DNA of 64,000 nt, taken from the NCBI RefSeq assembly GCF_002940205.1, contig NZ_MDSK01000004.1, positions 62,001-126,000 of the forward strand, read 5' to 3'. Position numbers and translations under genes: made by a program. The DNA comes from Xanthomonas arboricola pv. guizotiae (GTDB lineage: Bacteria > Pseudomonadota > Gammaproteobacteria > Xanthomonadales > Xanthomonadaceae). How positions within the stretch are numbered: position 1 is the stretch's first letter; each line of letters starts with the position of its first letter. Of the stretch, positions 47,624-62,231 are shown piece by piece. The notes under the pieces are model-generated. The model made no database searches. It was not told the origin of the DNA and worked only from the letters and a program-made list of their open reading frames with translations.

Positions 47624-48757
47624 ATGACCAGCGACGTACTGCAACTGACCTGCGAGCTGATCGCACGCGCCTCGGTGACACCGGACGATGCCGGCTGCCA
47701 GGCGCTGCTTGCGCAGCGCCTGGAGGCCGCCGGATTCGCTTGCGAGCACCTGCGCCTGGGCCAGGTCGACAATCTGTGGGCCACCCATGGCAGCGGTGCG
47801 CCGGTGCTGGTGCTGCTCGGCCACACCGATGTGGTGCCGCCGGGACCGCGCGAGGCCTGGACCAGCGATCCATTCGATCCGCAGATCCGCGATGGTGTGC
47901 TGTACGGACGCGGCACGGCCGACATGAAGGGCAGCGTGGCCGCCTTCGTGATCGCTGCCGAACAGTTCGTCGCCGCCCATCGGCAGCATGCCGGCACGCT
48001 GGCGGTGTTGCTGACCTCCGATGAAGAAGGCGATGCCATCGATGGCGTGCGGCGCGTGGCCGAGCTGTTCCGTGCGCGCGGGCAGGCGATCGACTGGTGC
48101 ATCACCGGCGAGCCGTCGTCCACCGAACGGCTGGGCGACCTGCTGCGCGTGGGCCGCCGCGGCAGCCTGTCCGGCACGCTGACGGTGAAAGGCGTGCAGG
48201 GGCATGTGGCGTATCCGCACAAGGCGCGCAATCCGATCCATCTGGCAGCGCCGGCACTGGCCGAGCTGGTGGCGCGGCAGTGGGACGAGGGTTTCGAGAG
48301 TTTTCCGCCGACCAGCCTGCAGGTGTCGAACATCCATGCCGGCACCGGCGCCAATAACGTGATTCCGGGCGAGCTGCAGGTGGCCTTCAATCTGCGCTAC
48401 ACCCCGCTGTGGGATGCGCCGCGGCTGGAAGCGGAAATCGCCGCAGTGCTGGATCGCCACGGGCTGGACCATGCGCTGCGCTGGCATCGCAGCGGCGAGC
48501 CGTTCTACACCCCGGAAGGGCGCCTGCGCAGCGTCGCACGCGAGGTACTGGGCCAGTTCGCCGGCGCGCCGCCTGAGGAAAGCACCGGCGGCGGCACCTC
48601 CGATGCGCGCTTCATCGCGCCGCTGGGTGCGCAATGCATCGAAGTTGGCCCGGTCAACGCCAGCATCCATCAGGTCGACGAGCATGTGCGCGTGGCCGAT
48701 CTGGAAGCGCTGCCGGCGTTGTATCGCACGCTGATCGAGCGGCTGCTGGTCGATTGA
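47624..48757 (+). CDS. dapE: Succinyl-diaminopimelate desuccinylase
   Basis: A 377-residue M20-family dizinc hydrolase with a good ribosome site (AAGGA, 5-base spacing). Metal and catalytic motifs are [40 protein letters not shown] and [14 protein letters not shown]. The dimerisation domain lies in the middle ([23 protein letters not shown]). It removes succinate to give LL-diaminopimelate for lysine and peptidoglycan. It lies 109 bp after the arsC-like gene. Confidence 0.97.
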
Positions 48758-48828
48758 CGGAGCAGTTGCCGCCGTCGTTGCCGCTGAAACAGTTGCGCCA
48801 TCGAAAACGAACGGTTAGCGTCGGTCAC

Positions 48829-48918
48829 ATGGTCTTCCAGCTCGCCAACCTCAATAACGCCAACCGCAACACTCTGCGCGCGAACAATCGTGCGCGGCCG
48901 ATGCGGGTCTGCGACTAG
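48829..48918 (+). CDS. asnB leader peptide, Asn-rich (29 aa)
   Basis: The reading frame begins MVFQLANLNNANRNTLRANN and ends RARPMRVCD with TAG at 48916. Seven Asn codons occupy positions 7, 9, 10, 12, 14, 19 and 20. The ORF lies in the 294-bp gap between dapE and asparagine synthetase, and its last codons overlap an RNA segment complementary to the terminator below. The ribosome site is weak. The gene product itself has no expected function; translation would sense Asn-tRNA supply. Confidence 0.75.
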   Translation: MVFQLANLNNANRNTLRANNRARPMRVCD

Positions 48919-48979
48919 GCGAAGTAAAACCAAACGCCCAGGAATCAGAAAACCCGCATCGGCCGATGCGGGTTTTTTT
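48896..48979 (+). promoter_or_regulatory. Transcription attenuator of asnB (antiterminator/terminator switch)
   Basis: Segment 2 (48896-48908, GGCCGATGCGGGT) is identical to segment 4 (48961-48973). Segment 3 (48951-48964, AACCCGCATCGGCC) can pair with either. Pairing 2:3 gives a 13-bp antiterminator; pairing 3:4 gives a 10-bp terminator stem followed by seven T residues (48973-48979). The leader ORF stop (48916-48918) places a terminating ribosome over segment 2, while a ribosome stalled at early Asn codons leaves it free. This is the layout of classic amino-acid attenuators. Confidence 0.8.
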
Positions 48980-49051
48980 ATGGGTGTCATTCTCGTGCAG
49001 CACGCTTGCCACCGGCCGCCAACCCCCGCAGTTTCATCCAGGAGTGTTTCC

Positions 49052-50746
49052 ATGTGTTCCATCTTCGGTATTTTCGGTCTGCAACCCGGTGACGATCTGC
49101 AGGCATTGCGCCGGCAGGCGCTGGAATGTTCGCAGCGGCAACGTCACCGTGGCCCGGACTGGAGCGGCGTGTATGTCGACGCCGGTGCGATCCTGGTGCA
49201 CGAGCGCCTGGCCATCGTCGACCCGGCCGGCGGCTCGCAGCCCTTGTTGTCAGAAGATGGCGCGCTTGCGCTCGCGGTGAATGGCGAGATCTACAACCAT
49301 CGCGAGCTCAAGCAGGAGCTGGTGCAGGCATACGCCTTCCAGACCGGCTCCGATTGCGAGGTGATCAATGCGCTGTACCGCGAGGATGCGCCGGCCTCCT
49401 ACCTCAACCGCCTCAACGGCATCTTTGCGTTCGCGTTATGGGACAAGGCCGCTGGGCGGGTGATCATCGCGCGCGACCCGATCGGCGTGGTGCCGCTGTA
49501 CTGGGGCCACGATCGCGAAGGCCGGCTGCGGGTGGCTTCGGAACTGAAGTCGCTGGTGGACGATTGCGCCGATGCGGCGCAGTTCCCGCCCGGCCACTGG
49601 TACGACAGCGCCACCGGTGCACTGAGTCGTTACTACGAGCGCTCCTGGCGCGAATACGCCGAGGTGGAAGGCGTGCAGGTGCAGTTGCAGGAATTGCGCG
49701 AGGCGTTCGAGCGTGCGGTGCATCGCCAGTTGATGACCGACGTGCCGTACGGCGTATTGCTGTCTGGCGGTCTGGATTCGTCGCTGGTCGCCGCCGTTGC
49801 CGCGCGCTACGCACGCCATCGCATCGAGGAGAACGACACCACCGAAGCCTGGTGGCCGCGCCTGCATTCGTTCGCGATCGGCTTGAAAGGCTCGCCGGAC
49901 CTGGCCGCGGCCGAAGTCGCCGCCGCCGCGCTGGGCACCGTGCATCACGGCTTCGAGTACAGCTTCGAGGAGGGCCTGGATGCGCTGCCGGAGGTCATCC
50001 GCCATATCGAGACCTACGACGTCACCACCATTCGCGCGTCCACGCCGATGTTCCTGCTGGCGCGACGCATCAAGGCGATGGGCGTGAAGATGGTGCTGTC
50101 GGGCGAAGGCAGCGACGAAATCTTCGGCGGCTACCTGTATTTCCACAAGGCACCCAACGCACGCGAATTCCACGAGGAACTGGTACGCAAGCTGGATGCG
50201 CTCAACAACTACGATTGCCTGCGTGCCAACAAGTCGATGATGGCCTGGGGCGTGGAGCCGCGCGTGCCGTTCCTGGATCGCGAATTCCTGGACGTGGCCA
50301 TGCGCATGGACGCCAGTTTCAAGATGATCGACAAGACCAGCAGCGGCGCTGCGCGGATGGAAAAGGGCGTGTTGCGCGAAGCGTTTGCCGGCTATCTGCC
50401 CGAATCGATCCTGTGGCGGCAGAAAGAGCAGTTCAGCGATGGCGTGGGCTATGGCTGGATCGATGGACTCAAGGCGCACGCCGCCGCGCATGTCAGCGAC
50501 CGCGAACTGGCTGCCGCCGCCAAGCGCTTTCCGGTCAATCCGCCGCAGACCAAGGAAGCCTATTTCTACCGCACGCTGTTCGAGCAGTTCTTCCCCAGCC
50601 AGGCGGCTGCGGAGACGGTGCCGGGTGGCAAGTCGATCGCCTGCTCGTCGCCGACCGCGATCGCCTGGGATGCCAGTTTCGCCGCGATGGCCGACCCGTC
50701 CGGGCGTGCGATTGCCGGCGTTCACGAACAGGCGTTGGCGTCGTGA
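49052..50746 (+). CDS. asnB: Asparagine synthetase B (glutamine-hydrolysing)
   Basis: A 564-residue protein. The start at 49052 has AGGAG upstream and gives MCSIFGIFG, placing the nucleophile Cys at position 2 after Met removal. The glutaminase domain has RHRGPDWSG and LAVNGEIYNHRELK. The synthetase domain has the PP-loop VLLSGGLDSSLVAAV and MVLSGEGSDEIFGGYLYFHKAP. It converts aspartate, glutamine and ATP to asparagine. It appears monocistronic and controlled by the leader attenuator. Confidence 0.96.
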   Translation: MCSIFGIFGLQPGDDLQALRRQALECSQRQRHRGPDWSGVYVDAGAILVHERLAIVDPAGGSQPLLSEDGALALAVNGEIYNHRELKQELVQAYAFQTGSDCEVINALYREDAPASYLNRLNGIFAFALWDKAAGRVIIARDPIGVVPLYWGHDREGRLRVASELKSLVDDCADAAQFPPGHWYDSATGALSRYYERSWREYAEVEGVQVQLQELREAFERAVHRQLMTDVPYGVLLSGGLDSSLVAAVAARYARHRIEENDTTEAWWPRLHSFAIGLKGSPDLAAAEVAAAALGTVHHGFEYSFEEGLDALPEVIRHIETYDVTTIRASTPMFLLARRIKAMGVKMVLSGEGSDEIFGGYLYFHKAPNAREFHEELVRKLDALNNYDCLRANKSMMAWGVEPRVPFLDREFLDVAMRMDASFKMIDKTSSGAARMEKGVLREAFAGYLPESILWRQKEQFSDGVGYGWIDGLKAHAAAHVSDRELAAAAKRFPVNPPQTKEAYFYRTLFEQFFPSQAAAETVPGGKSIACSSPTAIAWDASFAAMADPSGRAIAGVHEQALAS

Positions 50747-61379: not shown

Positions 61380-62231
61380 TTATCCGGATGCGGCGGGGGA
61401 TGCCAAGCCGCGCGCATGCGTGCCGGCCAGATAACGCGTGGGTGGAGCGCCGAAATGGCGGTGGAACACACTGACGAAGGCGCTGGGGCTGCTGTATCCG
61501 AGCTGGTCGGCGACCTGGGCGACCGGCCTGCCCTGGCTGAGCCGTCGCAGCGCCTCTGCCAGCCGGGCCTGCTGCCGCCACTGCGCGAAACTCAGCCCGG
61601 TCTCGCTGCGGAAATGCCGACTCAGGCTGCGCGCCGACAGCCCGCCCCAGTCGGCCCAGGCGTCCAGCGGGCGCGGGTCGGCCGGGGTATCGAGCAACTG
61701 CCGGGCGATGCGCAGCAGCCGCCGGTCGGCCGGCATCGGCAGGTGCAGGTGGTCGATCTGCACCTGGTGCAGTTCGTCCAGCAGCACCGCGGCCAGGCGT
61801 TGCCGGGCGGGGTTGAGCGGCTGGCCCAGCGGCCAGTCGGCCGCGCGCATGATCACCTCGCGGGCGAGCCCGGTCAGGCGGATCACCCCGCCTTGCGCGG
61901 GCAACGCGGCGCAGGCGTCCGGCCGGACCACCACGCCCCAGCCGCGCAGCGGCCCGGCCAGTTCCACGGTGTGCTGCTGGCCGGGCGGCATCCAGCCGGC
62001 GCAGCCCGGCGGTAGCGACAGGCTTCCCTGCTCGGTGTGCACCGTCAGCACGCCGTGCTCCACATACATCAGCTGCCCGCGGACATGCGCATGCCGAACC
62101 GTTTCCGGCGCCCATACCGCGCGCAGGTCGGCCAGGAACGCGATCACCTCCGGTCCGTCGGCCCACTCGAAGCTGTCGCGCACGCCGGGTGGCAGGGCAT
62201 CGACCGTGGTTGGCGGGTTTTCGACAGTCAT
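61380..62231 (-). CDS. AraC family transcriptional regulator
   Basis: A 283-residue protein. The N-terminal cupin-type sensor domain (HVRGQLMYVEHGVLTVHTEQGSLSLPPGCAGWMPPGQQHTVEL) is followed by a C-terminal AraC helix-turn-helix pair (GLSARSLSRHFRSETGLSFAQWRQQARLAEALRRL and VADQLGYSSPSAFVSVFHRHFG). It lies divergent to the efflux operon and 123 bp from it, so it may regulate that operon, though no evidence shows this. The ligand is unknown. Confidence 0.88.
   Translation of the reverse strand: MTVENPPTTVDALPPGVRDSFEWADGPEVIAFLADLRAVWAPETVRHAHVRGQLMYVEHGVLTVHTEQGSLSLPPGCAGWMPPGQQHTVELAGPLRGWGVVVRPDACAALPAQGGVIRLTGLAREVIMRAADWPLGQPLNPARQRLAAVLLDELHQVQIDHLHLPMPADRRLLRIARQLLDTPADPRPLDAWADWGGLSARSLSRHFRSETGLSFAQWRQQARLAEALRRLSQGRPVAQVADQLGYSSPSAFVSVFHRHFGAPPTRYLAGTHARGLASPAASG

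Follow-up and report, generated by a model that had tools for sequence, protein, structure and literature searches.

A candidate ribosome-mediated transcription attenuator with an asparagine-rich, apparently leaderless leader ORF upstream of asnB in Xanthomonas arboricola and its relatives

What does the short stretch between dapE and asnB do in Xanthomonas arboricola pv. guizotiae, and could it adjust asparagine synthesis to the supply of asparagine? The window (the whole 64,000-nucleotide stretch analyzed here, positions 62,001 to 126,000 of contig NZ_MDSK01000004.1) carries between the dapE stop codon and the asnB ATG, in this order, a promoter-like pair of boxes, a short ORF rich in asparagine codons, and a hairpin followed by a T run. 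A previous sequence-only reading had proposed a leader-peptide attenuator of asnB. The present analysis of the ORF, its codon frame and the conservation of its pairings supports this reading at the level of sequence, and the features on which the argument depends are as follows.

The asnB locus and its asparagine-rich leader ORF

dapE, stop codon at 48757, + strand: upstream neighbor (TIGR01246, 545.3 bits, cut-off 361.8)
48793..48798, + strand: -35 box TTGCGC, the position of TTGC being conserved across leaders
48816..48821, + strand: -10 box TAGCGT, separated from the leader ATG by 7 nt
48829..48918, + strand: leader ORF of 29 codons with 7 Asn, probably leaderless, conserved before asnB
48847..48888, + strand: putative Asn-sensing codon stretch, 7 of 14 codons (codons 7-20)
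48896..48908, + strand: segment A, predicted 5' strand of the antiterminator in the last leader codons, which a ribosome at the stop codon is expected to cover
48951..48964, + strand: segment B, the shared strand, predicted to form the antiterminator with A and the terminator with C
48961..48973, + strand: segment C, 3' arm of the terminator and direct repeat of A, overlapping B at the hairpin tip
48951..48979, + strand: predicted intrinsic terminator hairpin with T run (stem 48951-48960 with 48965-48974)
within 49034-49051, + strand: SD-like AGGAG of asnB
49052..50746, + strand: asnB, encoding the glutamine-hydrolysing asparagine synthase B of 564 aa (NF006949, 866.8 bits, cut-off 499; TIGR01536, 428.5 bits, cut-off 267.1)

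Among the matches listed, the closest named relatives are X. euroxanthea (AsnB 98% identical) and X. cannabis (97%). The window's genome has more distant AsnB-like matches as well: over the N-terminal part one is 44% and another 38% identical, and a third is weaker. An asparaginyl-tRNA synthetase was detected above its family cut-off, and no match for GatB was found in this genome; tRNA-Asn is therefore presumably charged with free asparagine, the product of AsnB.

Translation of 48829-48918 gives MVFQLANLNNANRNTLRANNRARPMRVCD followed by a stop codon, and the first bases of the Asn codons are at 48847, 48853, 48856, 48862, 48868, 48883 and 48886. In the 350 nt upstream of asnB in the window, six AAY triplets fall within 12 in-frame codons, a density that was equaled in none of 5000 dinucleotide-preserving shuffles. 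We compared 103 non-identical leaders, comprising 39 named loci, 63 further genomes and the window; they are not independent, as some possibly come from the same or nearly the same species. Duplicates (L005, L013), loci with no leader (L065, G091, G067) and a fragment (G156) were left out before counting. The leaders are 20-45 codons long with 3-10 Asn each, and their AAY triplets are distributed over frames 0, 1 and 2 as 675, 4 and 7. Both asparagine codons are used in the leaders (355 AAC and 320 AAT), indicating that selection keeps the amino acid while the bases vary.

Asparagine makes up 19.3% of leader residues and 1.5% of residues in the asnB genes, so that a short ORF enriched in codons for the product of the downstream enzyme, as expected of a ribosome-mediated attenuator, is present. 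These proportions also bear on the possibility that the leader is a general sensor of translation speed with no specificity for asparagine. Alanine (18%) and arginine (14%) are frequent leader residues too, which would fit such a sensor; many of their codons, however, seem to lie at the end of the ORF in segment A, where the sequence is constrained by pairing, and the excess of asparagine over the asnB genes argues for specificity. We regard a general sensor as very improbable.

The balance between the two asparagine codons differs from that of the asnB genes examined (279 AAC and 50 AAT): AAT is overrepresented in the leaders (320 of 675 against 50 of 329). A high share of AAT might perhaps keep the leader region unpaired or slow its decoding.

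Distribution, promoter and start codon of the leader

The survey set comprised 200 genomes of the window's order. A close AsnB was found in 127 of them (125 relatives, the window's own genome, and G156, whose AsnB is a fragment without the N-terminus and was excluded), and 126 had a usable region upstream of asnB. The Asn-rich ORF precedes asnB in 64 of the 66 usable genomes of three families (33/34 in f1, the family of the window, 28/29 in f12 and 3/3 in f2), which by their named loci correspond to Xanthomonadaceae and Rhodanobacteraceae. It was found in none of the 60 genomes of five other families (f4, f5, f7, f9 and f10), where the count peaked at 4 Asn in 12 codons, in a single case. Both genomes scored as survey misses, G091 (L178) and G067 (L176), possess an AsnB only 64% and 65% identical to that of the window, compared with at least 73% for other AsnB matches in the carrying families; these values suggest that asnB has been replaced in the two genomes. 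The lowest-scoring carriers have 3 Asn codons in 12. They are G146 and G110 in this survey and, in the set from genome contigs described next, L022, L075 and L013, the last a duplicate of G146; their promoter spacing, ORF end and hairpin were the reason for counting them as carriers. In L075 the -35 position reads TTAC instead of TTGC.

A second set was obtained from a scan of genome contigs and consists of the 80 best-matching asnB loci in a longer list. Among those 80, 42 belong to Lysobacterales and 41 of them carry the Asn ORF, the one miss being L065; in the other 38 the highest count was 5 Asn in 12 codons, seen once, with at most 4 in the remaining 37. A class-level survey of 143 genomes returned four close AsnB matches, namely the window's own genome, one further genome of its family and two others. 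From its distribution over families, the Asn leader seems to have originated in the ancestor that the three families share. The carrying families retain the ORF, the alternative pairing and the terminator together; loss of the ORF or of the alternative pairing in relatives that keep the terminator had been set beforehand as evidence against an attenuator.

A link with dapE was also considered and was rejected. A dapE match was found in the upstream stretch examined at only 13 of the 41 Lysobacterales leader loci, within about 310 nt in five; at the other 28 there was none in that stretch, which was shorter than 2500 nt in four of them. The sequence-only reading had treated the dapE-asnB gap as the unit to compare; this describes the window, where the leader does lie in that gap, but across relatives the Asn leader stays with asnB although the upstream gene changes.

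The leader ATG is directly preceded by the promoter-like pair, a feature that the earlier description, right on the ORF and its segments, had missed. The two boxes are separated by a 17-base spacer, and CGGTCAC and then the ATG follow the -10 box. Because the boxes stand directly before the ATG, the predicted 5' end of the RNA coincides with the start codon, and we infer with considerable confidence, from the sequence, that transcription starts at 48829, the first base of the leader ATG. The arrangement is conserved. TTGC lies 35-38 nt before the start codon in 101/103 leaders (2.7% of 3381 control ATGs), C occupies position -1 in 99/103 (31.8% of control ATGs), and the two occur together in 97/103 (1.5% of control ATGs). 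The leader ATG was selected among in-frame ATGs partly by its promoter match, and the starts of L023, L039 and G110 were set by hand.

An alternative is that the same attenuator is translated from a conventional 5' UTR, with a transcription start site further upstream and an ORF that is not leaderless. If the nearest in-frame ATG is taken for every leader, the TTGC spacing is kept in 84/103 and absent from 19/103; in leaders with a single in-frame ATG before the Asn stretch, however, the spacing occurs in 59/59 and C at -1 in 56/59, and L039 has a GTG at the very place of the start codon. An SD-like tetramer precedes the leader start in 15/103, which might speak for a 5' UTR, but this equals the rate for control ATGs (14%). 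With the promoter abutting the start codon, SD-led translation of the leader ORF was not supported in these 103 leaders, whereas an SD-like motif precedes the asnB start in 99/103. The conventional 5' UTR is thus an unlikely explanation. Given the attenuator class, it is very likely on sequence grounds that the leader is leaderless.

Alternative pairings ahead of asnB

An exact second copy of GGCCGATGCGGGT (48896-48908) lies at 48961-48973; the + strand of the window contains no third copy, and AACCCGCATCGGCC at 48951-48964 is complementary to both. Segment A lies in the last codons of the ORF, which ends at 48918; the T run of the hairpin ends at 48979, 73 nt before the asnB ATG at 49052. The layout given by the sequence-only reading (an ORF of 29 codons with seven Asn in a 14-codon stretch, a 13-base repeat with a complement able to pair with either copy, a leader stop codon just past the first pairing segment, and a terminator with a T run 73 bases before asnB) is accurate to the base.

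A terminator was found by the scanner between the leader ORF and asnB in 97/103 leaders, the window included; in the remaining six, inspection by eye shows hairpins whose T runs are weak or interrupted. The T run is interrupted in many relatives, with 4 of 9 bases being T in 20/99. Four leaders without a terminator by the scanner (G090, L029, L030 and L039) and two that were mis-assigned (G160 and L075) are omitted from the pairing counts below, which cover the remaining 97 of the 103.

The predicted A:B pairing in the window has an energy of -22.2 kcal/mol, which none of 1000 shuffles reached (best -19.3 kcal/mol). Over the 97 leaders it ranges from -12.2 to -25.9 kcal/mol, with a mean of -19.3 compared with -12.9 for shuffled ORF ends, and 96.9% of ORF ends pair with B at -14 kcal/mol or lower, a level that 22.7% of 286 control stretches from the region before the promoter attain. 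Segment A begins 16-35 nt before the end of the leader stop codon. The core CCCGC is almost invariant, but the sequences flanking it covary with A: the Xanthomonas version pairs ACCCGCATC with GATGCGGGT, that of the Rhodanobacter group GGCCCGCC with GGCGGGCC, and in L018 and G136 A is GCAGGCC and B is GGCCTGC. At position -1 of the core the A-B pairs are G-C in 41, T-A in 35 and C-G in 3 of the 97, and at +5 they are C-G in 48, T-A in 18 and T-G in 14; A was placed by best complementarity in this comparison, which favors pairing. Several flank columns are often unpaired even so, for example with C-A at +6 (39/97), in 13/97 at -1 and in 17/97 at +5. The individual leaders reach z < -2 against shuffled ORF ends in 67/97 cases, and 30/97 do not pass. 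The alternative pairing recurs in different sequences, but its length differs between groups, as many leaders are unpaired at several flank columns.

The pairing of the ORF end with a terminator arm also bears on the possibility that the ORF encodes a functional Asn-rich small protein and that the terminator merely ends upstream transcription. The ORF is conserved at the protein level, and there is a precedent for a trans-acting leader peptide, peTrpL, in the passages seen of one report (PMC7298713). A selected small protein would, however, hardly account for that pairing, for lengths of 20-45 codons with a highly variable N-terminal part, or for the presence of ORF and terminator also at loci with no upstream dapE match. 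We consider it a most improbable explanation.

The folds were computed with a ribosome whose edge was set 12 nt past the first base of the A-site codon; the order of synthesis lies outside this model. A ribosome at the first Asn codon leaves at least half of A in the A:B pairing in 80 of the 97 folds; for the middle codon the number is 86 and for the last 87. With the ribosome at the stop codon the B:C terminator is predicted in 97/97. Sequence and folding therefore predict an antiterminator that excludes the terminator, and a ribosome that has reached the leader stop would mask one of its strands. Only in 31/97 leaders, the window among them, does the predicted stability of A:B exceed that of the terminator hairpin, so that the switch must work mostly through the order of synthesis. 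In the ribosome-free full RNA the terminator is favored in 84/97 and the antiterminator in 13/97, the window being among the 13. Before C is synthesized, A pairs with B in 67/97, including the window; in 18/97 half the length of A is paired with leader sequence upstream of it. These folds indicate no general protector hairpin, and an upstream protector or pause hairpin of the E. coli trp type was not found as a general feature of the 97.

The hairpin could instead act on translation, the position of the ribosome exposing or hiding the ribosome binding site of asnB. The SD-like motif before asnB described above would provide a target, and mycobacterial Cys leaders have been described as translational in the passages seen (PMC9031893, PMC13236596). 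The hairpin of the window, however, has a T run and lies 73 nt away from the asnB ATG, and across the 97 leaders the corresponding distance of 29-223 nt varies too much for the SD to be masked directly; translation attenuation is accordingly rated as highly unlikely. Five leaders (L021, L023, L026, L028 and G115) have 130-223 nt between terminator and asnB, which leaves space for another element.

Proposed mechanism, wider pattern and known systems

Based on these data, the element is very probably a ribosome-mediated transcription attenuator of asnB that responds to asparagine. Transcription would begin with the A of the leader AUG, and a ribosome would load straight onto the 5' end of the nascent RNA; such loading is suggested by the fixed promoter-to-start distance. 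With ample Asn-tRNA the ribosome would read through the Asn codons, reach the stop codon and cover A; B and C would pair, and the terminator would stop transcription before asnB. Under a shortage of Asn-tRNA, the ribosome would wait in the Asn codons and leave A free to pair with newly made B; C would then stay single-stranded and RNA polymerase would continue into asnB. Leader translation, ribosome stalling and the response to asparagine or Asn-tRNA charging are deduced here from this architecture.

If the attenuator operates in this way, asparagine would be added to the amino acids for which sensing through a translating ribosome is known, and the control of asparagine synthase would be explained in a large group of plant-associated and environmental Gammaproteobacteria. 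Attenuation in this group would begin on leaderless RNAs, with SD-free translation at the nascent 5' end, and the compact conserved module would make it directly testable how the first ribosome couples to RNA polymerase.

Leaders for other amino acids show a similar arrangement. A Thr/Ile-rich leader before thrA starts 35-38 nt after TTG in 13/13 Xanthomonas genomes (L264 and L271 are listed with a start at an in-frame ATG some 15 nt upstream of this one), and the Ile/Leu/Val-rich leader that precedes the ilv genes shows the same spacing in 7/7 Xanthomonas genomes with enough upstream sequence (of 13); the spacing for both, in relatives at L264-L278 (thrA) and L247-L260 (ilv), was counted without control ATGs. 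In the window's own genome the Thr and Ilv leaders are found at L268 (reverse strand, 1219) and L256 (reverse strand, 44), with the box TTGACA. An ilv leader with 11 Ile/Leu/Val in 12 codons and TTGACA at the leaderless distance is present in G004 of family f4 (L248, 1140); G026, the only surveyed f4 genome with AsnB, has no Asn leader. The same scan found no leaderless-type leader at five other non-Xanthomonas ilv loci and eight thr loci, and a search for a His leader at hisG gave nothing convincing in four loci. To judge from these sequences, leaderless leaders may be common among attenuators here. A survey of proteobacterial attenuators (Vitreschak, 2004) may cover the Thr and Ilv leaders of Xanthomonas.

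These observations can be extended to a clade-wide standard in f1, f12 and f2. Leaderless attenuators would be the usual amino-acid control, with the promoter fused to the leader start and three segments sufficing, and ribosome-free RNA would tend to read through as A meets B before C. The Asn/asnB class, undescribed in this proposal, would have arisen once in the ancestor of the families and have been kept with asnB. We put this forward tentatively, as possible rather than probable, because A:B is more stable than the hairpin in a minority of leaders and ribosome-free RNA mostly folds into the terminator.

Known leaders offered no match: none of the Rfam leaders or T-boxes matched the window at gathering score, the best sub-threshold scores being 24.2 of 55 bits for Thr_leader (on the opposite strand) and 21 of 50 for Leu_leader. 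The sequence-only reading had named no asparagine-specific case for asnB, and no paper on an Asn leader-peptide attenuator was found among the matches listed in open-licence PMC full text either, a collection outside which most subscription papers lie. Asparagine terms gave no relevant mention in PMC2965389, PMC8632094 and PMC1262725, and the passages seen of PMC3771888 and PMC3568101 mention Xanthomonas AsnB with the leader absent from them. To judge from the open-licence literature, it is moderately likely that the specificity for asparagine is new in print.

Classical attenuators of the trp, his, thr, ilv, leu and phe operons have a short ORF rich in codons for the product, a stop codon by the antiterminator strand and a terminator before the gene. 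The Asn leader resembles them in its codon-rich ORF, the stop codon beside the antiterminator strand and the terminator; it differs in the amino acid and gene (Asn and asnB), in a start codon at the predicted 5' end and in having no general protector hairpin. Asn T-boxes of Firmicutes sense tRNA-Asn charging by binding the tRNA itself, without a leader ORF; they share charging-based control of asparagine genes with the system proposed here, which differs in using a leader ORF.

The nearest parallels for the leaderless start come from other groups. Sinorhizobium meliloti is an alphaproteobacterium. According to the passages seen, the 5' end of its trpL attenuator RNA is the ATG of the leader ORF (PMC7298713), making it a leaderless attenuator RNA as well; it concerns Trp and trpE(G) rather than Asn and asnB, and the likeness lies in the position of the 5' end. 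In mycobacteria, leaderless polycysteine sORFs have been described, again in the passages seen, as acting by translational control (PMC4633059, PMC9031893, PMC13236596). They too are leaderless ORFs with many codons for a single amino acid, placed ahead of genes that serve the metabolism of that amino acid, but combine Cys with translational control, whereas the leader described here combines Asn with an intrinsic terminator. The kind of attenuator and leaderless attenuator RNAs are thus known, and the features that would be new here are the amino acid asparagine, the leaderless start and the three-segment design.
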